In this document: positions 12,771-60,304 of the stretch, piece by piece
Layout of the letters: each line of letters starts with the position of its first letter
Numbering within the stretch: the stretch's first letter is position 1
Source: Hyaloperonospora brassicae
Taxonomy: Eukaryota > Oomycota > Peronosporomycetes > Peronosporales > Peronosporaceae
DNA: 64,000 nt
Reading direction: 5' to 3'
Assembly (NCBI GenBank): GCA_947650285.1
Contig: CANTFL010000535.1
Span: forward strand, 62,001-126,000
Notes under the pieces: model-generated
Told to the model about the DNA's origin: nothing
What the model saw: only the letters and a program-made list of their open reading frames with translations
The model's database searches: none
Program-made: the position numbers and the translations under genes

Positions 12771-13097
12771 TGTAATGGGCCACCCCGTTACATAAGTAGT
12801 TTCGATTAAGTTTACATGTTACTTAAGTAGGGGTGTTACTTTCGAAGTAGCGAAAGTAGCACGTCGTATATTTTAGCTGGTTTAATGGGCTCAGTACCAT
12901 TATTAGCCAGTAAGAAATAGACACGTAGATTGAGTGGTTCCCATGAGTCCAAGGGAACCATTCGTACTTAGGATGATTTTTAAAGACAAAATATAAACAG
13001 AGTTAAAAATACTTAACACCTAAGACTTGGGCTTTGAGCTTCCTCAAAGCGTTAGAAATAGTGTACACTGAGTACGGGTTATTCTAGCCCCGTTACA
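12771..13097 (+). repeat. 5' LTR of element E
   Basis: Starts TGTAATGGG, which pairs with CCC.GTTACA 22 bp further in, and ends GCCCCGTTACA. Contains hairpins such as ACTTTCG/CGAAAGT and GGTTCCC/GGGAACC. It differs from 20,145-20,471 only at aagaaat versus aagatat. Confidence 0.95.
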
Positions 13098-13099
13098 CC

Positions 13100-13116
13100 T
13101 GGTAGCACTTAGTAGT
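13100..13116 (+). other. primer-binding site of element E
   Basis: TGGTAGCACTTAGTAGT begins two bases after the LTR. The first eight bases complement an initiator-Met-like tRNA end. The gag ATG follows only 24 bases after its start. Confidence 0.7.
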
Positions 13117-13123
13117 CCTTCCC

Positions 13124-14173
13124 ATGCCCGAGTTTGGGATGAGCGATTCGTCGTACTTTGACGCTCCAGACGTGAGTCTGGAGCACGCGACTTTTCCCCA
13201 TCTCACTGGTGTTGAGTGGGATGCCCTAAATCGCCTCGCGGCGATATCGGGAGAGGCATTTGTTGTGTCGCTGATGAGATCAGCGACTCCTGATGAACAG
13301 CGTCTCGCCATACACGACTACATGGCTCGCGAGCTCGCCGAATTCCATCGGCGAGGTTTAACTCCCTCGCGGACTTCACGGAACGATGCCGTGAAGATGG
13401 AGACCTCCGCCTATTCTGGCGAAGGAAAAGAACGCTTGTCGTTGTCTCGTTGGTTTCGAGAGGTCGACATCGCTATCGCCTCGAGACTTCTCGAGGCTCC
13501 TCAAGCGAAGGTCAATTTCCTTCTTTCCCGTCTCACTGGGAAAGCCAAGGAGTGGGCCTTGGGAAAACTCGTTGTTGACGAGTTTGCGTTCCCCACTCTG
13601 GAAGCCATCCAGAGTGACCTTCGACTCGCCTTCGAGCCGCCCCAGGAAGAGAAGTTGGTGCGTTCAAGGTTCCTGTCCCTGCGACAGGGTAAGATGTCCA
13701 TGCGCGACTACGTGCAGATGGCTCGACATCTGGCGTCTTGCATTGTCACGCATCCCATGGACATGTATACACAAGTGAACGTGTTTGTCGATGGCATGCG
13801 TGAAGGGCAGACTCGCCTCTCGCTGGAACGAGCAGAGCCTGCCACGTTGGAGGAGGCTTTCGCTATCGCTCTCCGTGAGGATTTCAGAGTCACCAAGGCC
13901 TATACCAAGCCTTCAGTTGTTACCGCTGTCAGATCAGCGGGCCCGGAACCTATGGAGATCGATGCAATTGAGTCGTCGGGTGACCGACGACGCGCTACAG
14001 CCTACAAGGGCGACGTCCGAGGCGGACGTCAGATGATCTGCTTTCGATGCCGAAAGCCGGGACATCGCGCGGCTGAATGCCGCGCGCCAGCACCGATGTC
14101 GGTGCATGCGTCGGACACCCATCATGAGGGAAGTGCTCCGATCAGTCGTCCAAAAAACGGACGAGACCAGTAG
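13124..14173 (+). CDS. gag: Gag of element E
   Basis: 349 codons, uninterrupted. The ATG at 13,124 is the first after the primer-binding site. Residues about 105-270 have the Ty3/Gypsy capsid pattern ([17 protein letters not shown], then [20 protein letters not shown] and [13 protein letters not shown]). At about 305-320 lies a canonical CCHC zinc knuckle, [14 protein letters not shown], which binds element RNA. Gag would assemble the cytoplasmic particle in which reverse transcription occurs. The frame closes at a TAG and protease follows in another frame, so pol expression would need recoding or a separate start. Perfect hairpins crowd the last 250 bp. Confidence 0.9.
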
Positions 14174-14193
14174 GTGCAGGGCGCCCTACAGGT

Positions 14194-15288
14194 TTGAAGA
14201 GAGGTCCGGGTCCACCGGTGGCAGCCCGACCTCCCAGCCCATCTGTGCTGCGTGCACGGTCAAATGCCACCACTACGAGTGGTGATTCACGCCTGATTAT
14301 TGTTAATCTACATGTCGCCGGTATCCGGCGACCCCTACGAGCGCTCCTGGATTCAGGAGCGACAAACAATTTCTTCCGTGAATCTTGCGTGTCAATGCTG
14401 CCACCCAGCATCCAGGTCCACGAGGGACCTGGCCAAGTTGTTGTCAAGCTCGCTGACGGGAAACCACGCCGCGTCTCGCGGCGCGAAGTGTCGTTGCCGT
14501 ACACGTTTGACGGCTTTCGCAGTAACGACAACTTCTTGGTGATTGAAATGAATTATGCATTCGATTGCATCCTGGGCATGCCATGGTTGGCACGCTATAA
14601 GCCCCAGATCGACTGGTTAGCCAGATCAGTGAGACGTCGAAGCAAGTTCGACGTCAGCGAAGTGTTCACCCATCTCTTGGTGTCTCCAAGTGATTGGCCG
14701 AACGTTACAGTCGTGGATCGTACATCCACGACACTGGCGGTACACAGAGTGAGCGATGGCCCTCTCTGTACCGCTTGTTCCGTGCCCCTACGCACAAGTG
14801 ATGATGCCTCCTCGCTTTGCAGCGAGGAGTCCGACGTGGACGAGCAGTGGCTCCCACGTAATGACGACGCGGACGAGCAGTGGCTCCCGCGCAACGACGA
14901 CGCAGTCGAACAGCGGTTCCCGCACGAGAGAGCAGTGGTCGAACACGAACATGTGTTCCCACCTGTACCCATTGTGGTCGAGCAGAGGCTCCCACAAGGG
15001 CAAGACGTGGCCGAGTAGGGGCTCGCCACCGAGTGTGACGTGGATGGACAAGAGTCCCCACGTGCGAATATGATGGTCGAACAGGGGTTCCCATCATCGC
15101 CTACTGTGGTCGAACAGAGTTTCCCACATGAGCAAGACGTGGTCGAGCAGGGGCTCCCACACGAGTTTGTGGCGGTAGAGCAGGGGCTCCCGCATCATGC
15201 TTCGACGGACGAGTATGGAATACTCCCGTCGCGCGATTTCGACGTCCTGGATGAGGACATCCAGCGTCTAGAGGGGGTGCAGATTTAA
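14194..15288 (+). pseudogene. protease and repeat-rich linker of element E (one nonsense codon)
   Basis: The frame shows [17 protein letters not shown] at about 14,338-14,385, a retropepsin active site (DSGAT), followed by the flap and the [15 protein letters not shown] segment at 14,572-14,620. This region would cut Gag-Pol. From about 14,836 it becomes an acidic repeat with a recurring EQ..P core. A TAG at 15,016-15,018 replaces what the repeat pattern suggests was Gln, and the same frame then continues to 15,288. RT follows in a different frame. Confidence 0.85.
14836..15200 (+). repeat. degenerate tandem repeat coding VEQ.(L/F)P units
   Basis: Nine or so units of 33-60 bp with core gtcgagcaggggctccca and variants, coding [VD]EQ[WRGS][LF]P. 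It lies between protease and RT. The antisense frame over it is Arg/Pro-rich, which is only a shadow. Confidence 0.8.
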
Positions 15289-15302
15289 CACCTGACTGCG
15301 GT

Positions 15303-16217
15303 TTGCCAGCTTCGAGCATGGACTCGAGGCACGATGGGGACGCAAGCTACGAGAACTCAGCGTTGGAATGTGTTCACGCTATTGTGTACGTGGACGGGAG
15401 TCCACAAAGGCGCCAATACATTGAGGTCGCGAGTCCACCTCGCGACGCGTCATCTATTACGAGCCTTCCAGGACTCTCCTGGAAGCATTTTCTACGCGAC
15501 CTCAAGGGAGGCACGGTGGAACAAGTATGTCTGGTCACCAACGAGGTGACTCATGAGCCGAATGAGGAGCTAATGACGCGCCCTCGAAGCGCTGAAAAGA
15601 AATCAGCGCGCGAAGAAAGATTTGCGTCGCAATCTTGGGAGGCTCTGCGCGAGTCTGGTAACCCTGTTTACGACATTGCACGAGAGTACGCCGACGTGTT
15701 CCCGGACAAGATTCCGGCCGAACTCCCTGCCGATCGTGGCGTGCGGCACGAGATTGATCTCGTGCCAGGATCGAAATATTGTGTGACACGGCAGTGGCCG
15801 TTGCCTCGAGACCAAGTCGAGGCTATTGATGCATTCTTCGAAGGTCGTCGCAAGGCCGGTCATGTGCGTGAGAGTGTCTCTCCCCATTCCAGTCCAACCT
15901 TCTGCGTGAAGAAGGCTACGGGAGGCTGGCGTATAGTTCATGCGTTTAACAAGCTCAACGATGCCACTATTCCTGCCCAAACGCCTATCCCCAGGAAAGA
16001 CATGGTTCTAAACCTCTATGTCAGGTAGCGTCATCTTCAGCGCCATCGATCTGACCGATGGCTTCTACCAGATCTTGATGCGACAGAGTGACATACCACT
16101 CACTGCGGTGAGCACCCCGAGTGGTATGCTTTGGGAGTGGCTGGTGATGCCACAAGGATTGAAGAACGCACCAGCCACTTTCAATCGCATGGTATCTCAA
16201 GTGTTGAGACCGCTTCG
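15303..16217 (+). pseudogene. reverse transcriptase of element E, N-terminal part
   Basis: The frame 15,303-16,028 contains the linker and RT fingers: [38 protein letters not shown] and [20 protein letters not shown] single extra base near 16,013 shifts into the frame 16,018-16,239, which carries FSAIDLTDGFYQILM and WEWLVMPQGLKNAPATFNR. Removing one base aligns it with the RT of C (49,700-49,640). The domain is then cut by a telomeric tract just before the catalytic motif. RT makes cDNA in the particle. The two breaks mean this copy cannot make RT. Confidence 0.9.
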
Positions 16218-16245
16218 AACCCTAAACCCTAAACCCTAAACCCTA
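16218..16245 (+). repeat. interstitial telomeric tract, four AACCCTA units
   Basis: Exactly 28 bp of AACCCTA repeats (TTTAGGG on the other strand, the telomere repeat of oomycetes and plants). It lies inside the RT coding sequence just before the YFDD codons (about 16,247-16,260). Since 28 is not a multiple of 3 it breaks the frame. Deleting it restores a frame reading RFGYFDDIF, three to four residues shorter than in C. Confidence 0.97.
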
Positions 16246-17430
16246 GCTACTTCGATGACATCTTTGTCCACAGTCGCGCTGAGGGCAATCTCAGTGCTGT
16301 CCAAGTTCACCTTCAACACCTGAAGCAGGTGTTTCAAGTCATGCGAGATAACAAGTTATATGCAAACTTGAAGAAGTGTGTATTCTGTGCACCGGAGATT
16401 CCGGTGCTGGGCTGCTACGTGAGTAAATCGGGTGTTCGAGCCGATCCAGAGAAGGTGTCGTCAATCTGTTCTTGGACCACACCCAAGAACCCTACGGAGT
16501 TACGTCAATGGCTCGGTCTAGCTAATTACTTGCATAAGTACACAAAGGATTACGCCGGTTCTATACAGCCCCTGTCGTCTCTTCTGAAGAAAGACGCCAC
16601 GTGGTCGTGGCGTCCCGAACATCAAGCAGCCTTTGACGCAGTGAAGAAAAGCCTGGCGTCGGCGCCAGTGTTGATACTCCCTGACGACACCAAACCGTTT
16701 CACGTGGTGTGTGATGCAAGTGACTTTGCAATTGGTTGCGCCCTCATGCAGTTCGATCACGAGGGCCGTGAACGAGTCGTGAGCTATCAGTCACGACAGA
16801 TGAAGCCGGCAGAGAAGAACTATCCGGTTCACGATAAGGAACTGCTAGCGATGCGCTACGCACTCATCAAGTTTCGTGTCCACCTACTGGGCGAACGCAC
16901 GTTCGCCCTGTATACTGATCATGCATCGCTGCGGACAGCAATGAAGAGCCCACACCTGTCACAGCGGATGGCACGGTGGCTCTCTTTCTTCTCCGAGTAC
17001 AACTTCGTCGTGCACTACAAGCCAGGCAAGACCAACATTCTTGCTGACGCACTGTCACGACGCCCAGATTACAATCCTCGTATGGCACTGAGTCGTCAGG
17101 CAACTGACGACGACGATGAAGACGATCGATGTGCGACGTGTGTGTCGTTGAATCTAACTCGGGTCACACCCGAGTTATGCCTTTTCGATGAAATTGTCGC
17201 AGCTTACGCGAACGATACAGATTATGCGGACATTATTGCCTATCTGCGCGCTCCCAGCGATGCTGCACTGGGAGCTCTTTCGCGAACGAAGCGTGATCAC
17301 ATTCAACGATACAGTATGGACGGTGATTTGCTGTTATATAGCATCGACAAATTCGATGCGCCTCGAACTGTGATTGCGAATGACTTGGATTTGCGTGCTC
17401 GTATCATCCACGAGTACCATGATGCCCCAA
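16246..17430 (+). pseudogene. RT palm/thumb and RNase H of element E
   Basis: Starts at the catalytic YFDD and continues in one frame (16,329-17,603). RT thumb: YANLKKCVFCAPEIPVLGC and LRQWLGLANYLHKY. RNase H: FHVVCDASDFAIGCALMQF (first Asp), HDKELLAMRYAL (Glu), LYTDHASLRTAM (second Asp) and ILADALSRRPDY, all catalytic positions present. It would degrade the RNA template. One extra A near 17,428 shifts the frame at the start of integrase: the shared GGHLGRERTF reading is found only after skipping it. Confidence 0.92.
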
Positions 17431-19530
17431 ATTGGCGGTCATCTGGGCCGCGAAAGGACATTCGCGGCTGTCTCGCGCGACTTCTTCTGGCCCCACGTGT
17501 ACAAGTGGGTTCGCAACTGGGTTCGCACCTGCGAAGTATGTCAGCGCGTGAAGCCATCACCATCGTCGCAGGCACCCCTGCGACCCCTGCCAATTGCAGC
17601 TGAGGCTTGGAGCTCAGTCTCAATGGATTTTATCTTCGGGCTTGCACCAGATGGCCAAGACCGATCGGGTATTCTGGTCTTTGTCGACAGATTCAGCAAG
17701 ATGACACATCTGGTGCCTGTTCATGCAACGATCACCGCGGCTGAGACCGCGGTGCACTTCATTGACACTGTGTTTCGCCATCACGGTCTTCCAGACAACA
17801 TTGTCTCGGACCGTGATCCTCGTTTTACATCTGCTTTTTGGACGTCATTGTTCGAGTTGCTTGGCACAAAGCTGCAAATGTCGACAGCAGCCCATCCGGA
17901 AACGGATGGGCAAACAGAGAGAGTTAATCGGGTCCTCGAAGATGTTATTCGAAGTTACGCAACGTCCTTTACAAGTTGGAGTGCGTTTTTGCCACTCGCG
18001 GAGTTTGCACTCAACAACGCGGTTCACGCGTCAACGGGGTTGACGCCATTTTTTGCAAATTCGGCCCGTCATCCTCGTGTACCTACCCTTCTTGCCGTGG
18101 GTCAACCCACGGCTCTTCGTGGCTCCACTCTGGCGGGGGGTGATAACGATAAACAACGATCGAGTGAAGCTCACGGTATTCTGAGCGCGAATGTTGTCAA
18201 CCATTCCAAGGCGAAGTCTTCTGTTTCGACGCCACGTGACGTGGCGTCCCCGATAGCTCAATGGACTACACAGACGCTGATCGACCCTTCTTCGAGTATG
18301 CGAAACCCTAAAGCTAACTACGCGCCGATTGAATCGGCGCGACCAATTGATGACATGGCTGTGTCAGAGTTTATACTCCAACGTCAAGCCATCACGAGGT
18401 TTGTACGCGATACTCTTCGATCTGCAGTGGATAAACAGAAAGCGAATGCAGACAAACGTGGAAGAAAGAACACGAGTACATTCAAGAAAGGTGATCGTGT
18501 ATTGTTATCTACCGAAGGCCTACGAGATTCAGCAGTAACCAATCTAGGCGCGAGCAAACTCGCGCCACGTTTCATCGGACCATTCACGGTACTCAAGGCA
18601 ATCGGCGACGCATACACACTGGCCATCCCTTCGTCACTGCGACTTCACCCGACGTTTTACGTCGGGCGGCTCAAGGAGTACCGTCCAGCTACGCTTCACG
18701 GGTTGGCTCCGTCCTCGGAGTCAAAGGCTCATAGGTCGACCTTCCCTCTCGCCTTGCTCGACGCACCAGCGACATCGGACGCGGCTGCGTCCCAGCCTGC
18801 GCGTGCCCAAGAACCTGGCGTTCCAGGTTCCGCATCCGTTCAAGCAGCTCGCGGTTCGACTGTCGAATCTCGTTCGCTGTTCTCTCAGCCCGCGCAGCTC
18901 GGTCAAGGGCAGCTTCAGCCTCCAGCTGGGCATCGACAGCCTTGTTCACAGCCGCATCTACATCGTCCTGGGCAACCAGGACGCCAGCAGTACCATCGTG
19001 AGGGTCCACCACCGCTTGTGGACGCGGAAGGACAGAAGCGCTGGATTGTGGAGCGTTTACTGGGTCACGAGGACCCTCGTCGTGAAACGACATCGTCGCG
19101 ACACCATGAGCGCGCGGTTCCAACCGCGCGCAAGTATCGTGTACGTTGGCTCGGGTTTCCACCCGAGCAGGATACGTGGGAACCGCGCTCTTCGCTTCTT
19201 CGAGACGTTCCGGACCTCGTTCGGGCTTACGAGTCCCTGCACACGCTTGGTGTAGACTTGGTCGACGACCTGTGTGTTCTCGCGGTGAGCGAGAACGAGA
19301 TGCACGACGACGGTGTCGTGGTGAAGTGTCACCACGACTACGAGACCGAGAGCGATTGCGAGAACGTCGTGGTGACGTTTCACCACGACGACAAGATGAA
19401 GAGCGACGACGAGAACGTTGCGAAGAGCGTGTATCGCGACGATCACGCGAACGAGAACGTCGTGGCGATTGCACGGCACCACGACCTCGAGAACGCGAGT
19501 GGTGTCGCCAGCGTGACGCGCCACGATTAA
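17431..19530 (+). CDS. integrase with C-terminal chromodomain, element E
   Basis: The frame 17,374-19,530 is open for about 700 codons from the integrase start. HHCC finger: GGHLGRERTFAAVSRDF to TCEVCQRVKP. Catalytic core with all three acidic residues: SMDFIFG, VSDRDPRFTSAFW and HPETDGQTERVNRVLED. GPF/Y module: APRFIGPFTVLKAIGDAYTL at about 18,563-18,622. Chromodomain at about 19,060-19,240: KYRVRWLGFPPEQDTWEPRS. It joins cDNA ends to host DNA, and the chromodomain is known in this family to guide insertion to heterochromatin. After it comes an acidic His-rich tail of repeats. The 3' 840 bp also code for ORF3 on the other strand. It lacks its own start because of the upstream frameshift. Confidence 0.9.
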   Translation: MGGHLGRERTFAAVSRDFFWPHVYKWVRNWVRTCEVCQRVKPSPSSQAPLRPLPIAAEAWSSVSMDFIFGLAPDGQDRSGILVFVDRFSKMTHLVPVHATITAAETAVHFIDTVFRHHGLPDNIVSDRDPRFTSAFWTSLFELLGTKLQMSTAAHPETDGQTERVNRVLEDVIRSYATSFTSWSAFLPLAEFALNNAVHASTGLTPFFANSARHPRVPTLLAVGQPTALRGSTLAGGDNDKQRSSEAHGILSANVVNHSKAKSSVSTPRDVASPIAQWTTQTLIDPSSSMRNPKANYAPIESARPIDDMAVSEFILQRQAITRFVRDTLRSAVDKQKANADKRGRKNTSTFKKGDRVLLSTEGLRDSAVTNLGASKLAPRFIGPFTVLKAIGDAYTLAIPSSLRLHPTFYVGRLKEYRPATLHGLAPSSESKAHRSTFPLALLDAPATSDAAASQPARAQEPGVPGSASVQAARGSTVESRSLFSQPAQLGQGQLQPPAGHRQPCSQPHLHRPGQPGRQQYHREGPPPLVDAEGQKRWIVERLLGHEDPRRETTSSRHHERAVPTARKYRVRWLGFPPEQDTWEPRSSLLRDVPDLVRAYESLHTLGVDLVDDLCVLAVSENEMHDDGVVVKCHHDYETESDCENVVVTFHHDDKMKSDDENVAKSVYRDDHANENVVAIARHHDLENASGVASVTRHD

Positions 19531-20068
19531 CCGCAGTCTTGCGCTCCACCAAGCTGCGCTCGTACCGTCCTATCCAGAGCTGTTCATAATCGCTGAGTGG
19601 ATACTCAGCGACGTGTCGTTTCCAAGCTTCGCGAGTTGGACGAGGCACCGAGTCACAGGAGTAACAAGATCCGTGCACGTGAACGTAGCAGAGTCGATCT
19701 ACGTTCCAGGCGTTTTCACAGATCTTCTCGCGCAGTACACCGATGGAATGATCGGCGTGGATATCTTCGCGATTGGCCAGCCACTGCTGAAAGTTCCTTC
19801 CGTCTTCATGCATCCGGTTCCACCGCCGGATGAACGCACACCATGACCGCTGGAGTGACTCGTATGAGATTCCATCAAGTCTCTTTCCGCGCAACCCACG
19901 GAAACGACGGAAGTAGTCCTGCATCGTTTCGAGAGAGTCCGGAGACCGAGCTCTGGACAAGTCATACAGCGCCCAAGGGATCAGGTGCTGATCCATCACG
20001 CGGTCGACCAAACTCCCGCTGATTGTGCGCGGGAGTGCTGTTTTGTTGGCGTCTGCGTCTTCAGTCAT
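18689..20068 (-). CDS. antisense ORF3 of element E, 459 codons, intact
   Basis: Starts at an ATG (20,068), 77 bp inside the 3' LTR, and runs leftward into the integrase gene, overlapping it by about 840 bp. Residues 20-180 form a globular-looking part (LQRSWCAFIRRWNRMHEDGR). Residues about 184-272 are an Arg/Ser-rich basic region. Residues about 373-428 are a predicted coiled coil (AEAALDRAARAERTANEI, then NRELLERMRNLERQVL). No known domain is recognised. The arrangement of basic region and coiled coil, coded antisense from the 3' LTR side, recalls antisense regulatory proteins of other retroelements, but that is analogy only. The W.AF..N...GR..W spacing also occurs in the D-element ORF3, suggesting homology. 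The long open frame could partly reflect constraint from pol, but 540 bp lie outside pol and remain open. Confidence 0.65.
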   Translation of the reverse strand: MTEDADANKTALPRTISGSLVDRVMDQHLIPWALYDLSRARSPDSLETMQDYFRRFRGLRGKRLDGISYESLQRSWCAFIRRWNRMHEDGRNFQQWLANREDIHADHSIGVLREKICENAWNVDRLCYVHVHGSCYSCDSVPRPTREAWKRHVAEYPLSDYEQLWIGRYERSLVERKTAVNRGASRWRHHSRSRGRGAVQSPRRSRSRDRRDTRSSQRSRRRSSSCRRGETSPRRSRNRSRSRSRGDTSPRHRRRASRSRSPREHTGRRPSLHQACAGTRKPERGPERLEEAKSAVPTYPARVETRANVHDTCARLEPRAHGVATMSFHDEGPRDPVNAPQSSASVLPRPQAVVDPHDGTAGVLVAQDDVDAAVNKAVDAQLEAEAALDRAARAERTANEIRQSNRELLERMRNLERQVLGHAQAGTQPRPMSLVRRARREGRSTYEPLTPRTEPTREA

Positions 20069-20130
20069 CGTTCGGCTTGTGAGTCGTTAAAGTCTTGTGG
20101 TTGAGCACTCACGGTTGGTGAGTGCTGTCT

Positions 20131-20144
20131 TGAGAAGGGGGTGA
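20131..20144 (+). other. polypurine tract of element E
   Basis: tgagaagggggtga directly precedes the 3' LTR. Purine tracts of this kind prime plus-strand synthesis. D1 and D2 have the same ...gggg(g)tga form. Confidence 0.75.
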
Positions 20145-20471
20145 TGTAATGGGCCACCCCGTTACATAAGTAGTTTCGATTAAGTTTACATGTTACTTAA
20201 GTAGGGGTGTTACTTTCGAAGTAGCGAAAGTAGCACGTCGTATATTTTAGCTGGTTTAATGGGCTCAGTACCATTATTAGCCAGTAAGATATAGACACGT
20301 AGATTGAGTGGTTCCCATGAGTCCAAGGGAACCATTCGTACTTAGGATGATTTTTAAAGACAAAATATAAACAGAGTTAAAAATACTTAACACCTAAGAC
20401 TTGGGCTTTGAGCTTCCTCAAAGCGTTAGAAATAGTGTACACTGAGTACGGGTTATTCTAGCCCCGTTACA
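20145..20471 (+). repeat. 3' LTR of element E
   Basis: 327 bp, one mismatch to the 5' LTR. Followed by the CATAA duplication at 20,472-20,476. Confidence 0.95.
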
Positions 20472-26960: not shown

Positions 26961-27286
26961 ATGTGTCATTACATGAGTGCACCAAAAAAGCGAATGAGCG
27001 ATTGTGAACGTCCATTTATATGATCTGGTCCGACTGAGTGCGGTAAAGGAATTGTTGGTGAGCTTCGTAGAGTATATATGCCGCCGGTCGTCCTGATCAT
27101 GGATATACGGGGCTAGCCAAGGACTTAACTGCTTGAAAAGAGGGTTTCAAACTTTCGGTGACTATTGAAAAACTGCTGGCCCGAACGACGAGAGTCGATA
27201 TGCTTTCAAATGATGCTATTTCCGGAGTTTGAGACGCCCGCGTCCGTACGCTGAGCGAACTGCAGTATGGCGTATTTAACGCTCTG
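26961..27286. other. no gene recognised
   Basis: Flank left of composite element D1. Nothing supported. Confidence 0.4.
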
Positions 27287-27678
27287 TGTAACGAGGCACA
27301 CCCTTGCGTGAACTTAACGCAAGGTTATCGGTGCGCCGACAGACGTACACAAGGCAAGCGAGGAAGCGTAGGTAAGGTAAAAGCAGAACTGTTATATTAA
27401 TATAATCAAGTCTTTTAACTACTGTCTCTCTGTTTGACTTAACTTAATTATGCTAATATAACTGAGTGTATGGTGACGTCTCGTCACCACTCATTGCGCG
27501 CGTCTTGCGGCGATTGGTGGGTTGATATCATCAAGATATCAACCAATAAACAGCCTCTTTGGTCGACCCTTCAATATCACCACCATTGGTGATATTGTTC
27601 AAAGAATATTCAACTTAATATTCTTTATTGTCACTTTCCTTAAAGTGACAATTCCATGTAACGAGCTGACCCGTTACA
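27287..27678 (-). repeat. D1 left LTR (inverted 3' LTR)
   Basis: 392 bp, starts TGTAACGAGG and ends CCCGTTACA. The inner neighbour tcacccccttaa is the reverse complement of a polypurine tract, so this is a 3' LTR in reverse and not a 5' LTR. The half from 27,520 is a chain of perfect hairpins. Confidence 0.9.
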
Positions 27679-27714
27679 TCACCCCCTTAACTGATAGTCA
27701 CCGTGTGACTATCA
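27520..27714. repeat. chain of six perfect hairpins
   Basis: Stems/loops: 27,520-27,544 (10/5), 27,572-27,597 (10/6), 27,601-27,626 (10/6), 27,627-27,652 (11/4), 27,656-27,679 (8/8) and 27,692-27,714 (10/3). The third and fourth abut with no gap. The same chain recurs in the other D LTRs. Confidence 0.95.
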
Positions 27715-27807
27715 AAAATATGGCGGCCACCCGTTGGCCACCATTGGGACAGGGAGCACTTGTTGGGTCCGTTCCATTCACTTTCCGCTTTACCTCGCAT
27801 AGTTAAC

Positions 27808-28665
27808 ATGTCTATGCGAGGCGACTCAAGACCCACACAGCCCGGTGCTGTGCCAGCCTCTGCGGCAGACGATTCGTCGTCTGCTGCTCCTTCTTCGCCT
27901 GCAGCAACAGGTGCTGCAGGTGCACGCGGTACCACACCGCGTGCGCACGATGACCCCGACGTTGAAATCATCTACTCTGGCGAGTCAGAAGTGTCTGACT
28001 CGGGCAATACTCCAGAGGCGTCTCGCTCACCGGCGACGCCTCAGTATTCGCCATGGCCATTGCCGAACGAACGGATTCGTGATTTGCATCACAGTCTGTT
28101 CGGCAGTGATCATGGAGGCGATCAGGGTGGTGAGATGTAGTATTCCTTACCACCACCGACTCGTGCCTCTTCGCACGAGCGTGATGACGATGGCGCGAGC
28201 CGTCGTCAATCTGGGAGCCGTGGTACCGACAGAGGTACCACTGTGAAGCGTGATGAGCTGAAGCCGTGGCGTTTGCCCGAGCGGCTCATCAATAGCTTGT
28301 CTCACGATACAAGCCAACACCATCGAATAACTTTATTCGATGCGACTAAGCTTCACGGCTTGGATCCCAGCGCGAATAAATTTCGCGCTGAAGAAGAATT
28401 TTATCTCGATGTCTTCCTTAGACATCGATGGTACAATGGCAACCAAAAGCGTGACAAGGCCTCGCTTTTGGCTGCGTGGAACGCGTTCGTCCAAAACGTA
28501 AAGAATTTTGGACGAGAAGGGTGGCTCAAGAAAGTTGAGACGACAAGCCTCAGGTTCGAAAGGCGAACGCCAATCGGTGCTAGCTACCGGTTTTACTGTT
28601 TGTCGAGTGAGGCAGACATTCCTTGCCTCAAATGGGGAGACCCTTGTCTTAGATCGCACTGTTGA
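27808..28665 (+). pseudogene. ORF3, inverted copy at the left end of D1
   Basis: Begins MSMRGDSRPTQPG at 27,808. The ATG sits in the loop of a 10-bp hairpin (27,793-27,821). An acidic, disordered N-terminus is followed by a TAG at 28,138, shared by D1-left and both D2 arms. The frame 28,243-28,665 has the conserved core: LKPWRLPERLINSLSHDTS, LLAAWNAFVQNVKNFGREG and LSSEADIPCLKWGDPC. It is the antisense ORF3 of the element, here pointing inward on the plus strand because the end is inverted. The coiled-coil C-terminus is lost at the junction near 28,655. Function unknown. Confidence 0.7.
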
Positions 28666-28888
28666 AATCATCCCTTTCCGCGCCCCGTCCCAGATCGTTC
28701 CATACCCATCAATCTGACGGCAGTTGGATCAGATCGTCTTTCTCCGTTGGGATCGCCTCCCATCTCTTATTGGATCGCCAGGTCCCATGGTCTCATTTTC
28801 CACCAGTAAGTGAAACCTTAACTGGGTGGTCACCGATCCACTTCCCATCATTTAATTAGTGACTTTACCACACTACCACGTCGGCCCG
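28655..28888 (-). repeat. captured fragment of the A/B LTR in D1
   Basis: About 230 bp reverse-complementary to 33,900-34,130 of the B LTR with few differences, ending at gactttaccaca. It sits exactly between the inverted end and the integrase part. The same fragment, same ends, is at 56,325-56,560 in D2. Confidence 0.85.
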
Positions 28889-28953
28889 ACTTCGAGCAGA
28901 CAACACGCGCCAACTGTTAGGACTTTCCCACTGTTGCGGCACATTCAGTCAGT

Positions 28954-30090
28954 GTGATGTCATCGCCTTTACTCGATGACGTGCGGAAGGCACACGCAGG
29001 AAATATGATTCTTCTTCGTTTTATGGGTCACCTTGCGAACCCATCCCGGAAATCCTTGTCGGATTTGCCGGCTCTATACCGTTCTTCGTTGGATCGTTAT
29101 ACGACTCGCAATAGCCTGATGTACTACACAGCAGCTGCCGACGATACACCTCGTGGCGTCGTTCCCGATCATGACGATTTGCGTGTAAGCATCATGTTCG
29201 AATGTCACGATTAGCCATCAGGCAGGCATCGTGGTAGGGAAAAGACTCTCCTCACGGTAAGTCGTGACTTTTACTGGACCCGCCAGTATCAGTTCGTAAG
29301 CAAATACATTCGTTCTTGCGAAGTCTGTCAACGGGTGAAGCCTAGTCCTTCATCCCGTGCGCCACTACAACCTCTGCCGGTCCCGGCAGAGTGTTGGGAG
29401 TCCGTTTTCATGGACTTTGTCTTCGGGTTCCCCGAAGACTCTCACAAAAATAATGGTTTTCTTGTGTTTGTGGATCGTTTTCAGCAATATGGTGCATCTT
29501 GCTGCAGTATTTGAATCGATCACTGCACACGGCTCTGCGCGTGTCTTTATCGACACAGTGCTTCGACTTCACGGATTATTCCGTGAACCCGTGTCCGTTC
29601 GTGACCCTCGGTTTACGGCGGAGTTTTAGCAATCCGTGTTCCGAGTGAACGGAACACGATTAAAGATGTAGAAATGTGACCTACCCGAAACAGATGGTCA
29701 GACGGAACGTGCCACCCGTGTCCTTGAAATAATTCTTCGAGGATACGTCCACTCTTTTTCGAGTTGGAGTGAGTTCTTGCCGATGGTCGAATTTGCCATC
29801 AACAAATCCGTGCATGCGTCAACAACGCATACACCATTCTACGTGAATGACTTACGACACCCACTTATTCCCGCCCTTATACAAAGTAATTCTGGGTTTA
29901 GGGGGGGAGGGACTCGCTCGAGCAAAAACCGTTTAAACTCTTGATCATCACGTATCATCGCACATGTCGATACGTGCGATGTCGATGTCGATAATGTCGA
30001 CATCGAAGAAGTTGATCTTATCAGTAGCAATGACGCTGCTGCTACTCCAGACAATGATGACGACGCTGGGAATTTCAGTATCGTCAACGA
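28954..30090 (+). pseudogene. integrase of D1 (broken)
   Basis: Starts in the linker before integrase (LLDDVRKAHAGNMILLRFMG), reaches the finger region with a TAG at 29,212-29,214 where E has Ala, then reads TVSRDFYWTRQYQF and RSCEVCQRVKP. Core pieces ESVFMDFVFGF, REPVSVRDPRFTAEF and ETDGQTERATRVLE (with frameshifts) give the D, D and E positions. Many frameshifts after 29,350. It would have inserted cDNA but is now inactive. Confidence 0.8.
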
Positions 30091-31092
30091 TTATGCCAGC
30101 GAGGAAGAAGACAATCTTGCTAAAGAATAGAAGAAACTCTTAGCAGTGCGCACGAACCGCACTGAAAGACAAAACAACGAGTCAGCGGAGAACTTCCTGG
30201 TGACTCGAGAGGCGGTAGTCCGTTTCTTTCTGGACTCCATCTCAAACGCGGTGGACCACCAGAAATGGAACGCAGACAAGAATGGAAGAGCAAATGTTCT
30301 TTCATTTAAGGTTAACGACCTAGTACTACTGTCTACGGTAAACTTAACTAAACATGCAGTCACTAGTGTCGGCAGTAGTTTACTACTGCCGAAGTACATT
30401 GGGCCATTTCGTGTGTTGCACCGCAAGGGCAATGCATACTCGATCGAGTTGCCTCGCAGGATGCGCACGCATCCTACGTTCTATGTTAGTCGTCTCCGCC
30501 CGAACTCCAGTACGAGGCCTCTTGGGAGGACGGAGATAGCCAGCACGCTCAAGAATCCCCAACAGAATCTTGTGATCACGGACCAAACACTCAAATTGAT
30601 TATTTAGCGACGCAGTCTCGCGACGAGCCGCCTCTAGCGCGTTGCACAAACGGCGCTTCTCTTGTTTGCTTCTGAGTTAAAAGAACGCGAAATCCGATAG
30701 GTCTTTTTCCTGATTGATACGGAGACGTCGTACGGTCGCCAGCATGCCGTGCCGATAATCGTATTCGTGATCGACGTCCGCCCTCAGCTCGGTCAGGTAG
30801 CTCCAATGGTTACCCAAAGTCTCCTGCAGGACCGGCGGTTGAGCCGGGCCTTGTCTTTCCACCGCCACCAGAACCACTGGTTGATTCTCACGGTGGTCGA
30901 CGCTTTCACGTGAGGACTATCTTGAGCCACCGCGTGAAGAAGGGGGAGCGGACGAGTTACCTTGTCCGCTGGCGTGGGTACCCACCATCGTATGACAGCT
31001 GGGAACCTCGATTCCAGCTGATGGCTGACGTTGAAGGTCTCGTCCACCAGTATCACAAGACCCATCCGATAGTTCCTCGGACCCATCGGTAA
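30091..31092 (+). pseudogene. integrase C-terminus and chromodomain of D1
   Basis: GPF/Y module: LPKYIGPFRVLHRKGNAYSI at about 30,388-30,450. Chromodomain: RTSYLVRWRGYPPSYDSWEP at about 30,949-31,010, with the frame 30,910-31,092 open through it. The 300 bp between them code for the ORF3 coiled coil on the other strand, as in D2. Confidence 0.8.
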
Positions 31093-32088
31093 ACACGCGA
31101 TTTTGGCCCTTGTAGACGGATTGCAAGTTTTTAATCGCGTCCCGCATCTCAGCCGAGATGTGTGCCCTTTCCCAGGGCGAACTTAGGGATTACACGTCCC
31201 TATGTGCACGTCGCGAGTTGTCAACACAACTTGCATAAGGATATCCCCAAGTGAGGCATGGAATGCCGGCCTCACTTAACAGATTATGCAACAGGTACCT
31301 TGCACCGGTTGGCGTTCGCTTTTCAAACTTAACGCGTACCGCATCAAGTTTTTGAAGCCGTCTTTCTCGTCCAAAGTTTTTGACATTTTGGACGAACGCG
31401 TTACACGCCGCCAAAAGCGAGGTCTTGTCACGCTTTTGGTTGTCATTGTACCATCGATGCTTGAGGATAGCATCGACATAAAAGTCTTCTTCAGCGCGAA
31501 AGTTCTTCGCGTTGGAACTCAAGCCGTGAAGCTTAGTCGCATCGAATAAAGGCATTCGATGGTGTTGGTTTGTCTCGTGAGACAATCTATTGATGAGCTA
31601 TTCAGGCAAACGCCACGGCTTCAGCTCATCACGCTTCGAGGTGATTTCTTTGCCGGTACCACGATTGTCAGTATGATGACGGCTCACACCATCGTCGGAT
31701 CGCTCGTGCGAAGGCGCACGAGTTGATCGCGGTGATGAGTAATCATACGTCTCACCATAGAGTTCATCATCACTGCCGAACAGAATGTGACGCATGTCGC
31801 GAGTCCGTACGTTAGGCACGACTCTAGATGGACGAGGGACCGCAAGGGAACGTGATGAATCTAAAAGCTTTTCCGAGGAAGACACCCATCTGACTCTCCA
31901 GAGTAGCTGACCACTAACTTGGGGTCACTGTGTCCATGAGTTATGATACCACATGCGCCTGAATCGACATCTGCTGCAGGCTGAAAACGAGCAGCAGACG
32001 ACTCGTCGTCTGCGTCAGAAGCGGGCGCTGCAACAGGCTGTGTAATCTTTGAGTCACCCCACATGGACATGTTAACTATGCGAGGCAT
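30383..32088 (-). pseudogene. antisense ORF3 at the right end of D1 (normal position)
   Basis: Read leftward from about 32,065 (MSMWGDSKITQPV), then KRDELKPWRLPE, LHGLSSNAKNFRAEEDFY, NAFVQNVKNFGRERRLQKL (31,585-31,190), then 31,147-30,917 and a coiled-coil tail (30,649-30,383). Clearly homologous to the left copy but much diverged, and it lacks the TAG shared by D1-left and D2. Broken by frameshifts. Confidence 0.7.
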
Positions 32089-32200
32089 AGTCAGAATTCA
32101 TGAATCTGACCAACAAGTACTATCCTTCCCGTTGGCATCCAACGGGTGGCCACAAAAGTTTAGATAGTCACACGGTGGCTATCAGTTAAAAGAGGGGTGA

Positions 32201-32642
32201 TGAAACGGGGTATCCCGTTACATGATATTGTCACTAAGGATAAAATGACAATAAAGAATATCACGTTGAATATTCTTTCAACAATATCACAGAGCATGAT
32301 TATATTGTTGAAGATGACCGAAGGGTCTACTCCCCGGTTGATATCGTGATGATATCAACCCACCAATCGCTGCTAGACGCGCGCAATGGGTGGTGAGTAG
32401 ACTTCATCATACATTTAATTACATTAGTATAATTAAGTCAGGACAAACAGAGATACAAGAGTTATAGTACTTAATTGTATTAATAACAGTTTTACTTTTT
32501 CTACAACCAGAGTCTTTCACCTTAGTCGTTCTACCTTCCTCTGTGCAGTTCTACACCTAGCTGGGCACTGACTATTACTACACTCAGTGATAGTAAACTC
32601 CGTACTGGTTGACCAGTACGTAGTGGTCGGTGCCCCGTTACA
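32201..32642 (+). repeat. D1 right LTR (3' LTR, C subfamily)
   Basis: 442 bp, preceded by the purine tract aaaagaggggtga. Starts TGAAACGGGG and ends GCCCCGTTACA. It is the near match, in reverse orientation, of the C LTR at 52,177-52,618, also 442 bp. Confidence 0.9.
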
Positions 32643-33577
32643 CTCATGTCATTCTCGTGGTCACGCATGCATCGCAGCACGACAGTGACAGCTCAATCTT
32701 TATCAGTGAGGAACGAGAGCTATTCTGGTACGTGTTCTTCACCATCACGACTCGCTTCAGCTTTGTAGAACAGAAAGAAGTGAGACATTAGTCAAAGGCA
32801 TTGCAAAGGCACTCGCACGTGACTGCCGAAGCGGAGGTCAACACCGTATAATTTTTCCTTACGTCGACAAGTACGCTCGATGTAGCAATCATAGTAAATA
32901 GACGTTATTCGCTTGTTGCGAAAGAGGTAGAAAAGTAAAATGTATCGAGCGTTCACTTTGTTTCTCAGCACTGCAACAAACATGTATAACGGCACAACAC
33001 GTCGACTACGTCAAGTTGCATATCGTACTGTTTAGTTCGACATAATATCATATTATCATTTAGAAAGGGCTGCCTTAATAAACTTAATGAAGCAGACTGA
33101 CCAAGTTGACCAGGTATACTCTACTGAAATCATTCACGGAACAACATTCTTTTGTGATTTTTTGCTCACCGCCGTCCTATTGAGCCTGACCCCAAAACAT
33201 AGAAATTATTCACTAATATTCGGGTGAGCTCAGAGCGTGCACCGTTTCTACCAAAGAAATGTTATTAACTTTTAAATTAAACACCCAACAATTTCTGATC
33301 ATTGTATTCGACAAATTACGTTCGTGTACTTGTCGACGAATTCATTTTCACACGGTTTATTAGTGGTGCGTTAAGTCTCGCGCACTGATGAAGGCTAATT
33401 GGTCGATTTGCTAATGTTGCTTAAACACGGAAATCACAGACAATAACCACTACAATGAAGACAGGTTCCCATCCAGAAGCTCGACAGAAAGACACCCAAT
33501 TCCTATTTGGGAATCAGAGGTAACAATAACGTCAAAGAATATTGGCACGAAACACTATGTCAAATGGCGATTGGTAA
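32643..33577. other. no gene recognised
   Basis: About 0.9 kb of AT-rich sequence between D1 and B. Short frames only (for example 32,792-32,995). It is not the missing 3' half of C, although B interrupts C on its other side. Confidence 0.45.
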
Positions 33578-54439: not shown

Positions 54440-54958
54440 AGCATGTACTGCATAACAACACTGGCTCATAGAATGCTTTCAGTCGTAGCCGAATCGATCT
54501 CCATCATCACTTGTCTGGTCTTCCAGCTCTTTGCGACATCGTAACGATGCAAACATCCTTGAGACGGCGTTCGGCGCCATCCTGGCCACCGAAAAAGTAT
54601 ATACGTCCATCGCTGTGCATCGTAGCGCCATGTCCAACACGTCCTCGTGGCAATGCATCAGTATTCCCATCGTCTGGGTTGCAGATAGCACCGGACTGCC
54701 ACTTCCATGACTTCGTGTCTCAGATGAACGAATCGCTGAACACACTTGTTAATGCACTTGCATCATCCCGCTGTGGATCCCAACCGCCAAAGATGAAATG
54801 CAGCCGTCATCCAAAAGCGTCGTCGAGTGACCTGTGGGATCTCGTGGAGGCGTACCAACCATAGGGGTTAAAACTACGTCCGCACTGGATCACTTGACGT
54901 CTCTTCTACTTTCCTTTGCAACACGTGCACCTCGTTGGAGCTTTTGGAAAAGCTATTG
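54440..54958 (-). pseudogene. kelch-repeat gene, C-terminal part (left of D2)
   Basis: Read leftward from 54,958: NSFSKSSNEVHVLQRKVEE, then after frameshifts RDPTGHSTTLLDDG, LHFIFGGWDPQRDD, a TGA, KSWKWQSGAI, GRVGHGATMHSDGRIYFFGG and RRLKDVCIV. The GH.......IY.FGG pattern repeats as in kelch/galactose-oxidase beta-propellers, which serve in protein binding. Two in-frame stops and at least one frameshift show decay. The N-terminal part is at 60,305-60,810, beyond D2. Confidence 0.75.
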
Positions 54959-55350
54959 TGTAACGAGGCACACCGTTACGTAAACTTAACGCAAGGTTAT
55001 CGGTGCGCCGACAGACGTACACAAGGCAAGCGAGGAAGCGTAGGTAAGGTAAAAGCAGAACTGTTATATTAATATAATCAAGTCTTTTAACTACTGTCTC
55101 TCTGTTTGACTTACCTTAATTATGCTAATATAACTGAGTGTATGGTGACGTCTCGTCACCACTCATTGCGCGCGTCTTGCGGCGATTGGTGGGTTGATAT
55201 CATCAAGATATCAACCAATAAACAGCCTCTTTGGTCGACCCTTCAATATCACCACCATTGGTGATATTGTTCAAAGAATATTCAACTTAATATTCTTTAT
55301 TGTCACTTTCCTTAAAGTGACAATTCCATGTAACGAGCTGACCCGTTACA
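54959..55350 (-). repeat. D2 left LTR (inverted 3' LTR)
   Basis: 392 bp. The inner neighbour tcaccccc is an inverted polypurine tract. Confidence 0.92.
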
Positions 55351-55480
55351 TCACCCCCCTGAACTGATAGTCACCGTGTGACTATCGAAAATATGGCGGC
55401 CACCCGTTGGCCACCATTGGGACAGGGAGCACTTGTTGGGTCCGTTCCATTCACTTTCCGCTTGACCTCGCATAGTTAAC

Positions 55481-56330
55481 ATGTCTATGCGAGGTGACTC
55501 AAGACCCACACAGCCAGGTGCTGTGCCAGCCTCTGCGGCAGACGATTCGTCGTCTGCTGCTCCTTCTTCGCCTGCAGCAACAGGTGCTACAGGTGCACGT
55601 GGCACCTCACCGCGTGCGCACGATGACCCCGACGTTGAGGTCATCTACTCTGGAGAGTCAGAAGTGTCTGACTCGGGCAATACTCCAGAGGCGTCTCGCT
55701 CACCGGCGAAGCCTCAGTATTCGCCATGGCCATTGCCGAACGAACGGATTCGTGATTTGCATCACAGTCTGTTCGGCAGTGATCATGGAGGCGATCAGGG
55801 TGGTGAGATGTAGTATTCCTTACCACCACCGACTCGTGCCTCTTCGCACGAGCGTGATGACGATGGCGTAGGCCGTCGTCAATCTGGGAGCCGTGGTACC
55901 GACAGAGGTACCACTGTGAAGCGTGATGATCTGAAGCCGTGGCGTTTGCCCGAGCGGCTCATCAATAGCTTGTCTCACGATACAAGCCAAAACCATCGAA
56001 TAACTTTATTCGATGCGACTGAGCTTCACGGCTTGGATCCCAGCGCGAATAAATTTCGCGCTGAAGAAGAATTTTATCTCGATGTCTTTCTTAGACATCG
56101 ACGGTACAACGGCAACCAAAAGCGTGAAAAAGCCTCGTTTTTGGCTGCGTGGAACGCGTTCGTCCAAAACGTAAAGAATTTTGGACGAGAAGGGTGGCTC
56201 AAGAAAGTTGAGACGACAAGCCTCAGGTTCGAAAGGCGAACGCCAATCGGTGCTAGCTACCGGTTTTACTGTTTGTCGAGTGAGGCAGACATTCCTTGCC
56301 TCAAATGGGGAGACCCTTGTCTTAGATCGC
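55481..56330 (+). pseudogene. ORF3, inverted copy at the left end of D2
   Basis: About 98 percent like D1-left, with the same N-terminus (MSMRGDSRPTQPG), the same TAG (55,811-55,813), then the frame 55,916-56,389 with LKPWRLPERLINSLSHDTS and LAAWNAFVQNVKNFGREG. The coiled-coil end is replaced by the A/B LTR fragment from about 56,325. Confidence 0.7.
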
Positions 56331-56560
56331 CTGTTGAAATCATCCCTTACCGCGCCCCGTCCCAGATCGTTCCATACCCATCAATCTGACGGCAGTTGGA
56401 TCAGATCGTCTTTCTCCGTTGGGATCGCCTCCCATCTCTTATTGGATCGCCAGGTCCCATGGTCTCATTTTCCACCAGTAAGTGAAACCTTAACTGGGTG
56501 GCCACCGATCCACTTCCCATCATTTAATTAGTGACTTTACCACACTACCACGTCGGCCCG
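56325..56560 (-). repeat. captured fragment of the A/B LTR in D2
   Basis: Same fragment and same ends as 28,655-28,888 in D1. Confidence 0.85.
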
Positions 56561-56625
56561 ACTTCGAGCAGACAACACGCGCCAACTGTTAGGACTTTCC
56601 CACTGTTGCGGCACTTTCAGTCAGT

Positions 56626-57960
56626 GTGATGTCATCGCCTTTACTCGATGACGTGCGGAAGGCACACGCAGGAAATATGATTCTTCTTCGTTTTATGGGT
56701 CACCTTGCGAACCCATCCCGGAAATCCTTGTCGGATTTGCCGGCTCTATACCGTACTTCGTTGGATCGTTATACGACTCGCAATAGCCTGATGTACTACA
56801 CAGCAGCTGCCGACGATACACCTCGTGGCGTCGTTCCCGATCATGACGATTTGCGTGTAAGCATCATGTTCGAATGTCACGATTAGCCATCAGGCAGGCA
56901 TCGTGGTAGGGAAAAGACTCTCCTCACGGTAAGTCGTGACTTTTACTGGACCCGCCAGTATCAGTTCGTAAGCAAATACATTCGTTCTTGCGAAGTCTGT
57001 CAACGGGTGAAGCCTAGTCCTTCACCCCGTGCGCCATTGCAGCCTCTGCCTGTTCCGGCAGAGTGCTGGCAGTCCGTTTTCATGGACTTCGTCTTCGGTT
57101 TTCCCGAAGACGCTCACAAGAATAATGGGATTCTTGTGTTTGTTGACCGTTTCAGCAAGATGGTCCATCTTGCTGCTGTACCTGAGTCGATCAAGGCTCA
57201 AGGTTTGCTCGCGTCTTTCTAGACACGGTCTTTCGACTCCACGGGTTACCCCGTGAACTCGTATCCGACCGTAACCCTCGGTTCACGGCGGCATTTTGGC
57301 AAACCGTGTTCTGTTCTCTCGGAACACGATTGAAGATGTCTACTTCTGACCATCCCGAAACATATGGTCAGACGGAACGTGCGAATCGTGTCCTCGAAGA
57401 GATCCTTCGAGGATATTTCCACTCGTTTCCGAGTTGGAGCAAATTCCTACCCATGGTGGAATTTGCCATCAATAATTCGGTGCATGCTTCCACACAGCAC
57501 ACACCGTTTTACGTGAATGGCTTACGCCATCCACGTGTGCCCGCCTTTCTAGAGTGTGACTCTTGGATAGGGGGGGAGGGACTCGCTCGAGCAAAAACCG
57601 TTTTGGCTCTTGCTCATCACGTGTCGACGCTAGCGTCGTCACGTATGATGCCGATGTCGATCAAATCGACATCGATGAAGAAGATCACCTCAATAATAGA
57701 GGCGACGATATTATTGACTCGGATGATGATGACGATGCTGGTATATTCAGCATCGTCAACGATTATGCCAGCGAGGAAGAAGACAACCTCGCTGAAGAAG
57801 AGAACAGTCTCTTAGCAGTGCGCACGAAGCGCACTGAAAAGACAAAACGACGAGTCAGCAGAGAACTTCCTGCTGACTCGAGAAGCGGTAGTCCGTTTCT
57901 TTCAGGACTCCATCGCAAATGCGGTGGACCGCTAGAAACGGAACGCAGATAAGAATGGAA
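56626..57960 (+). pseudogene. integrase of D2 (broken)
   Basis: The linker and finger are nearly identical to D1, including the TAG at 56,884-56,886. Then SRDFYWTRQYQF and CEVCQRVKPSPSPRAPLQP; core SVFMDFVFGFPEDAHKNNG; a frameshift near 57,205; LVSDRNPRFTAAFW-like; and HPETYGQTERANRVLEEIL (E: HPETDGQTER). An acidic segment (57,640-57,790) follows. Less damaged than D1 but still broken. Confidence 0.82.
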
Positions 57961-57999
57961 GAGCAAATGTTCTTTCATTTAAGGTTAACGACCTAGTAC

Positions 58000-59782: not shown

Positions 59783-59912
59783 GTTAACTATGCGAGGTCA
59801 AGCGGAAAGTGAATGGAACGGACCCAACAAGTGCTCCCTGTCCCAATGGTGGCCAACGGGTGGCCGCCATATTTTCGATAGTCACACGGTGACTATCAGT
59901 TCAGGGGGGTGA

Positions 59913-60304
59913 TGTAACGGGTCAGCTCGTTACATGGAATTGTCACTTTAAAGAAAGTGACAATAAAGAATATTAAGTTGAATATTCTTTGAACAATATC
60001 ACCAATGGTGGTGATATTGAAGGGTCGACCAAAGAGGCTGTTTATTGGTTGATATCTTGATGATATCAACCCACCAATCGCCGCAAGACGCGCGCAATGA
60101 GTGGTGACGAGACGTCACCATACACTCAGTTATATTAGCATAATTAAGTTAAGTCAAACAGAGAGACAGTAGTTAAAAGACTTGATTATATTAATATAAC
60201 AGTTCTGCTTTTACCTTACCTACGCTTCCTCGCTTGCCTTGTGTACGTCTGTCGGGGCACCGAAACCCTTGCGTTAAGTTCACGCAAGGGTGTGCCCCGT
60301 TACA
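59913..60304 (+). repeat. D2 right LTR (3' LTR)
   Basis: 392 bp, preceded by the purine tract caggggggtga. Starts TGTAACGGG and ends GCCCCGTTACA. Confidence 0.92.

Follow-up and report, generated by a model that had tools for sequence, protein, structure and literature searches.

The genome of the oomycete Hyaloperonospora brassicae carries Ty3/gypsy long terminal repeat (LTR) retrotransposons whose DNA, protein genes included, is saturated with short perfect hairpins that follow one another about every 65 to 140 nt. We describe this pattern from element E, which lies in a stretch of 64,000 nucleotides (the window; positions 62001-126000 of contig CANTFL010000535.1 in the 100.6-Mb assembly GCA_947650285.1), together with its relatives C, C2 and D in the same window, family F, which is large and lies outside the window, and the locus L061. 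Our preferred explanation, to which we give a probability of roughly 0.45, is that local folding of both strands has been selected, perhaps against sense-antisense duplexes and the silencing that these would provoke, with template switching at the hairpins as a helper.

An initial annotation, made from the letters alone, had listed 21 perfect hairpins and put the chance expectation for the 5.3 kb of E concerned at about 0.5. All 21 are present with stems of at least the length given there, and seven can be counted as longer: those at 14,711, 17,156 and 19,366 gain one outward pair each, while the stem at 16,593 extends inward by one pair and those at 16,889, 18,321 and 55,994 pair further inward to leave loops of 2, 1 and 2 nt. 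Across 14,066-19,389 we found 34 perfect hairpins with stems of at least 8 bp and loops of 3 to 8 nt, compared with 0.47 on average, and never more than 4, in 200 dinucleotide shuffles, which agrees with the expectation given in the annotation. With the standard count used elsewhere (stem of at least 7 bp, loop of 3 to 10 nt; 30 dinucleotide shuffles for each element), E has 66 hairpins against 3.8 in the shuffles, C 42 against 2.0, C2 28 against 1.8 and D 59 against 2.4, so the proposal that C and D share the property of E holds as well.

The excess remains when synonymous codons are shuffled (100 shuffles each), with 30 hairpins against 2.5 (maximum 9) in the pol of E copy L013, 12 against 0.9 (maximum 3; stems of at least 7 bp) in the gag of E and 49 against 2.0 (maximum 8) in family F; it is weaker in L061 (20 against 2.9 in codon shuffles). 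Six control open reading frames (ORFs) of the window, treated in the same way, have 0-2 hairpins against 0.08-0.60. Hairpin density amounts to 6.9-15.4 per kb in 30 loci around the RNase H of F (L031-L060), 7.3-8.5 per kb in 24 young E loci including the window copy and 5.0-6.3 per kb in six older E copies, and such a drop with age is what one would expect of hairpins that are a property of active elements and erode once a copy has inserted. The hairpin saturation of these elements is thereby confirmed.

Other DNA of the window and of the host does not approach these values. Elements A (1-12,600) and B (33,580-48,649) each have 9 hairpins, against 5.2 and 7.1 expected, in line with the initial view that neither is hairpin-rich; besides A and B, four stretches of the window have 1-3 each against 1.2-1.4, and 20,600-24,100 has 3 against 1.3. 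Ten arbitrarily chosen 3-kb host stretches sum to 19 hairpins against 15.9, the highest being L072 with 5 against 1.2. These controls lie slightly above their shuffles and far below the 16- to 25-fold excess of E, C, C2 and D, and neither shuffled sequence nor A, B or the host stretches equal the density of the carriers.

The hairpin carriers found form one clade of oomycete Ty3/gypsy chromodomain elements, placed by a tree of reverse transcriptase (RT) relatives that is weak, with four of its six inner branches open and L098 represented by only 89 residues. C2 is close to family F (90% amino-acid identity in RT). L098, a relative of both E and F (64% and 67% amino-acid identity, over 308 and 345 residues, respectively), has a single hairpin in 1.5 kb of one copy. 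Seven 1.5-kb stretches from other RT families (L098-L102, L105 and L106) hold 0-2 hairpins against 0.4-0.8, L107 holds 3 against 1.35, and L103, which is family F, holds 21 against 0.9. Viral contigs were searched for DNA relatives, and of 58 stretches that matched a pattern, none was confirmed.

Three other candidates were rejected. Five copia loci have 4-11 hairpins against about 1.4, and a copia counterpart of the saturation was dropped because the counts of L094-L097 (7-11) come to a considerable extent from a TGACGTCA array near the element end. Neither a known structured RNA (no Rfam match in 12,700-20,600) nor tRNA genes (none found in the window) can be named as a source. The palindrome array near the copia end lies at about 3078-3198 in L094-L096 (turned to the copia strand), and its TGACGTCA units resemble ATF/CREB sites.

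Constraint on the stems and template switching

If folding of both strands is selected, copies whose strands fold better would leave more offspring. Two self-folded strands should anneal poorly to each other, and less of the long duplex that is the substrate of silencing would then form between sense and antisense transcripts or between RNA and first-strand cDNA, with stems of 8-11 bp being presumably stable yet too short for Dicer cutting. Template switching at the hairpins would probably supply some of the perfect stems, and selection would keep them. Argonaute-like proteins are encoded by the genome, with three Piwi-domain matches, two of them on one contig with equal scores. Small RNAs of Phytophthora infestans map for the most part to transposable elements, mainly LTR retrotransposons, and the 21-nt class is Dicer-dependent (PMC3522703). 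Qbeta replicase, as another report describes it, requires strong structure throughout its template, as strands otherwise hybridise (PMC5362092). Escape from silencing would thus be our preferred reason for selection on folding, and the more specific proposal of an element-long hairpin armour on both strands, built through synonymous codons and preventing long duplexes for RNA silencing, is distinctly doubtful.

The evidence for selection comes chiefly from family F. At its third codon positions, shared variants number 0.077 per site within stems and 0.192 outside them (0.40 times, p 2.2e-6). The stem sites used were those paired in the majority of copies, a choice that counts against our reading in so far as it may lower stem variation somewhat. 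Private variants at these positions stand at 0.249 in stems vs 0.344 outside, and the contrast between shared and private has a p of 0.023. Interior paired sites of F have shared and private variants in a ratio of 35:170 vs 281:645 outside (p 1e-4), and shared variants per site amount to 0.053 in stems and 0.119 in loops. The F tests leave out L032, L037 and some of L056-L058, as well as L033 and L043 in one variant count, and the E tests leave out L061 and L062, as well as L025-L030 in one mismatch count.

Stem lengths are not geometric, where chance falls about fourfold per added pair: E has 13, 33, 16, 4 and 1 stems of 7, 8, 9, 10 and 11 bp, and the F copy L055 has 10, 13, 14, 11, 3 and 1 stems of 7, 8, 9, 10, 11 and 12 bp, giving a mode of 8-10 with a cut-off at 11-12. 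None of 270 tabulated non-overlapping stems exceeds 12 bp, and a single 13-bp stem was seen in L033. Dicer substrates need a longer duplex than these stems, and the formation of small RNAs from them, one of the causes first offered for the pattern, is unlikely to be their purpose given that perfect stems almost never exceed 12 bp. Were stability under selection, stem length should trade off against GC content, and such a relation appears, AT-rich stems being the longer ones, among the 262 pooled stems (rho -0.28, p 4e-6) and within C and D. Most loops span 2-10 nt, with no clear preference for GNRA or UNCG tetraloops. In F, the codon phase in which third positions pair with each other is used least (8 of 52, vs 24 and 20), as is expected when synonymous freedom goes to matching constrained bases; no such bias is seen in E (9, 11, 11) or L061 (7, 9, 8).

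The hairpins had been described as lying in conserved protein motifs, which does not hold as a preference for E and F, whose stems are not concentrated in the best conserved parts of the protein: amino-acid identity between E and F is 0.43-0.45 in E stem codons vs 0.62 outside, and 0.53-0.55 at F stems vs 0.63 outside. The stems of L061 behave in the opposite way, with identities to E of 0.79 and 0.67 vs 0.67 outside. Hairpin places turn over and some persist. E and L061 have six hairpins at the same place, among 28 and 18 alignable ones, vs 0.22 by chance, and three of these six hold paired changes (four in total, by eye); E and F have three hairpin centres in common, of 18 and 41 hairpins that could be aligned, with 0.45 expected by chance. 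Compensated pairs also occur within F, at 16 of 623 pairs among 26 copies.

Template switching acts on these hairpins, and loops have been inverted in place at least twice. In F copy L048, the loop TCATC has become GATGA (5 of 5 bases, within a 19-nt reverse-complement match), and in L046 a TT loop has become AA between intact arms. Within E's 11-bp hairpin, six bases read ACGTTT in 22 copies and L017, and are inverted to AAACGT or a near-variant in seven other, older copies. A CA/TG pair at a fourth loop was discarded as evidence of inversion because TA intermediates exist, so that it proves nothing.

A mutational ratchet, in which RT or host polymerases fold back and copy arm onto arm so that hairpins are perfected without any benefit, is possible but somewhat unlikely as the explanation of the whole pattern. 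It gains from the inverted loops of L048, L046 and the E subfamilies, from mismatches that are symmetric for the two strands (see below), from the turnover of hairpin places between E and F, from the larger amino-acid change between E and F in the stems of both, and from the absence of third-position constraint in E. It also has precedents, since template switching has been described to create or repair hairpins and to invert their loops in genes of yeast and in RNA genes (PMC8604942, PMC8794818). The data on imperfect stems speak against the ratchet. At pairs mismatched in most F copies (12 G-U, 12 A-C), shared-lineage changes affect 4 of 24, all to Watson-Crick pairs, which is about the background of 0.19 per pair, and the same 24 pairs have nine private changes, five of them to Watson-Crick pairs, which is below background.

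Private clusters of at least three substitutions tell the same story. Among those listed (14 of 16 in F and 16 of 17 in E), only L048 and, in E, L030 were flagged as copied, and the L030 cluster has a forward match of 38 nt, which suggests an alignment shift and leaves one clear case of template switching. The arms of hairpins that are absent from a relative have changed equally (left:right 83:83, 37:45, 135:144, 60:59 and 208:203), with no significant asymmetry in a comparison of limited power at high divergence (three of five comparisons slightly above control, two below, p_hi at least 0.34). Between two LTR families, X and Y, the stems of Y correspond in X to 55 identical, 16 mismatched, 2 compensated and 2 unclear pairs (30% difference outside stems), and the stems of X correspond in Y to 52 identical, 14 mismatched, 1 compensated and 29 unclear pairs (28% difference outside stems). 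Because mismatches change at about background, clusters are rarely copied and compensation in LTRs is rare, switching is unlikely to maintain perfect stems now. The snap-back switching invoked in the initial annotation is therefore borne out by the loop inversions as a process and falls short as what keeps the stems perfect at present. The persistence of mismatches, the rarity of compensation and the constraint on F, including its third positions, make us lean to selection over a copying ratchet.

Symmetry between the strands

Selection on a helix in plus-strand RNA should tolerate G-U pairs and not A-C pairs, and we counted both in E and F from loci oriented to the element strand. Judged by their commonest state, the mismatched pairs in stem interiors are G-U 12, A-C 12 and other 14 in F, and G-U 4, A-C 2 and other 15 in E; by a second definition, mismatched stem pairs are G-U 16, A-C 17 and other 19 in F, and G-U 3, A-C 5 and other 10 in E. 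Shared mismatch variants at paired sites number G-U 9, A-C 15 and other 9 in F, and G-U 6, A-C 6 and other 2 in E. In the count that gave the single-mismatch stems of E (below), the ratio of G-U to A-C is 5:2 in C and 8:9 in D, two values that are not strand-pure owing to the inverted arms of these elements, and 11:10 in C2.

Folding energies, computed in 300-nt windows against 40 codon shuffles on both strands, agree for the two strands. The z values are -26.1 (plus) and -26.2 (minus) for F, -8.3 and -6.7 for E, -2.8 and -4.1 for L061, -4.1 and -3.2 for L098 (843 nt), -2.5 and -2.7 for copia locus L095, and -0.4 and 0.0 for L101, another RT family. F thus combines low energy on both strands with G-U equal to A-C, as expected of structure on both strands, and E is less clear.

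Selection on the plus-strand genomic RNA alone, for packaging, compaction, protection or translation control as in viruses with structured genomes, is improbable. The very low plus-strand folding energy and the constraint on F stems would suit it, and so would the single-mismatch stems of E, which lean to G-U (8 vs 2, p 0.11). However, G-U, although it does no harm in RNA, is no more frequent than A-C in F stems or at the outer flanking pair of six elements pooled (40 vs 59, p 0.07), ancestral mismatches that turned into pairs in F were A-C 9, G-U 3 and other 10 (A-C vs G-U p 0.15), the minus strand folds equally well, and the loops and the Rfam search offer no known RNA motif (no clear GNRA or UNCG loops, no match in the stretch given above). 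Since G-U is not favoured over A-C in F and the strands fold equally, uses of the sense RNA alone fit poorly. For the selection on RNA structure that the initial annotation had suggested, this means that lineage-level constraint on F stems is found and that packaging or RNA protection, as plus-strand-only uses, suit the data badly.

Quite improbable is selection on the single-stranded minus-strand cDNA, where hairpins would protect or compact the cDNA or aid strand transfer. A-C in the plus strand equals G-T in the minus strand, and A-C is ahead at the flanks, among the ancestral mismatches and among shared F variants (15 vs 9), but none of these leans is significant alone and the single-mismatch stems of E lean the opposite way. 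That chance, an assembly artefact, codon usage or base composition would account for the hairpins has practically no probability, being ruled out by counts in E, C, C2, D and F that exceed those of dinucleotide and codon shuffles 12- to 70-fold, by background DNA and most other elements lying near expectation, and by the same hairpins recurring in dozens of copies on different contigs.

Several results weigh against selection for folding of both strands. The loop inversions show a mutational process at work on the very same hairpins. Third positions of E lack constraint (0.089 vs 0.099, 0.90 times, p 0.77), the effect across all paired sites of E is weak (p 0.098), and E's single-mismatch stems show the G-U lean just mentioned. 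The trade-off between stem length and GC content is not seen within E (rho -0.02) or F (rho -0.09). Hairpins are irregularly spaced in F (coefficient of variation 1.14) and more regularly in E (0.59). L098 and other retroelement families are hairpin-poor under the same host. The weak result for E tempers our lean to selection over the ratchet.

Architecture of E and other DNA of the window

E is a Ty3/gypsy LTR retrotransposon, with paired LTRs, a target duplication (the 5-bp repeat CATAA at 12766-12770 and 20472-20476), gag, protease and RT/RNase H ahead of integrase, and a chromodomain (Table 1). Its RT was identified by tblastn to a relative of E and not by a Pfam match, and its RNase H ORF finds its best protein matches in Peronospora effusa, P. 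matthiolae and several Phytophthora species.

Table 1. Coordinates of E, its parts and related elements in the window
Feature	Position	Strand	Details
Left LTR of E	12771..13097	+	327 nt; begins TGTAATGGG, ends CCCGTTACA; perfect 8-bp hairpins at 12837, 12935 and 13031
gag ORF of E	13124..14173	+	Pfam: retrotransposon gag, Ty3 capsid, zinc knuckle
Stretch of E listed in the initial annotation	14,066-19,389	+	34 perfect hairpins, stem at least 8 bp, loop 3-8 nt
Aspartic protease ORF of E	14194..15018	+	Pfam; hairpin-rich
RT and RNase H part of E	15861..17603	+	Broken in window copy; RNase H by Pfam
Integrase ORF of E	17374..19530	+	Pfam: zinc domain, rve, SH3-like, chromodomain
11-bp hairpin of E	19365..19390	+	Six inner bases ACGTTT; AAACGT or a near-variant in seven older copies
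Right LTR of E	20145..20471	+	327 nt; 99.7% alike to left LTR across a 329-nt match
Element C	27285..32644	.	Related to E; LTR-gag arms inverted at its two ends
C2	48643..52619	-	Ty3/gypsy pol of F kind, with LTR
Element D	54957..60304	.	Related to E; inverted LTR-gag arms of 1,116 nt, 98% complementary
LTR of D and border	55143..55386	+	Seven perfect hairpins within 244 nt, partly shared with LTR at 52,175-52,619

Some features of E are of interest in their own right. Just upstream of the YFDD motif of its RT, the window copy has four perfect copies of the telomere-type repeat AACCCTA (16218-16245), where other E copies hold a different short stretch, and this array is possibly a repair scar. 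A 459-codon antisense ORF without a Pfam match lies on the minus strand at 18689-20068, opposite integrase and chromodomain, and the self-complementarity of codons may give rise to such long antisense ORFs as a by-product. The two longest coding hairpins of E (19,315 and 19,365) lie within 19315-19418 and are not independent, because they are copies within one 51-bp tandem duplication. In family F, a private cluster of L049 (alignment columns 3382-3390) makes an 8-bp palindrome with a one-base centre from a 6-bp hairpin, a change that is not explained by a simple local copy.

Transcripts of C and D could, owing to the inverted LTR-gag arms, form one very long hairpin, which might act as a trigger of silencing within elements that are themselves hairpin-rich. 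Element B has terminal 2.2-kb repeats (33,580-35,772 and 46,455-48,649) that are 99% alike, and few long ORFs; parts of the window at 1-7,006 are its diverged relatives. Degenerate tandem arrays of a 14-bp unit, TTGCCCGTAATCGG and its complement, occur at 63259-63434 and 24717-24896 in mutually inverted orientation.

Significance and comparison with known systems

If the hairpins are selected, they would amount to a folding code that spans the coding sequence of a retrotransposon, and possibly to a strategy of silencing evasion; if they are mutational, they would be a natural example, and an unusually strong one, of genes being rewritten by template switching. Should the armour on both strands be real, it would be a sequence-wide and protein-free counter-defence of a mobile element. 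With young and old copies in one genome, next to a hairpin-poor relative, the origin and upkeep of perfect stems are directly testable. No earlier description of hairpin-saturated retrotransposons came up in a literature search that hardly extended to subscription papers and preprints.

In gene content, the carriers resemble oomycete Ty3/gypsy chromodomain elements, sharing Gag, protease, RT, RNase H, integrase, chromodomain and LTRs, with protein relatives in Peronospora and Phytophthora. The RNA map of yeast Ty3 differs in that its abstract describes a folded core and not hairpin saturation (PMC11381356). RNA viruses with genome-wide ordered RNA structure are similar in having structure across coding sequence and folding energies far below those of codon shuffles, and in Qbeta templates structure throughout averts strand hybridisation, a dead end (PMC5362092). 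Unlike these RNA viruses and Qbeta, the present case is a DNA-integrated retroelement with discrete short hairpins that are symmetric for both strands.

Template-switch hairpins in yeast genes and RNA genes resemble ours in loop inversion between intact arms, as seen in L048 and the E subfamilies; those described in the two studies are scattered events (PMC8604942, PMC8794818), whereas here hairpins fill the whole element, arms show no significant one-way overwriting in a comparison of limited power, and mismatches are repaired no faster than background. The nearest precedent is provided by the palindromes in mitochondrial coding genes of Nematomorpha (PMC6649704). These reach 284 bp and the long ones are nearly all perfect; such long, all-or-none perfect arms do not occur in our elements, where stems of 7-12 bp, often flanked by mismatches, sit in a nuclear retrotransposon and show signs of constraint in F, and where 33 of the 70 widest stem sites of F carry an imperfect stem in 95% or more of the copies. 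What the two systems have in common are perfect inverted repeats that are accommodated in coding genes through synonymous freedom, with favoured phases, and that are gained and lost between species, and there, too, the authors weigh conversion against function.

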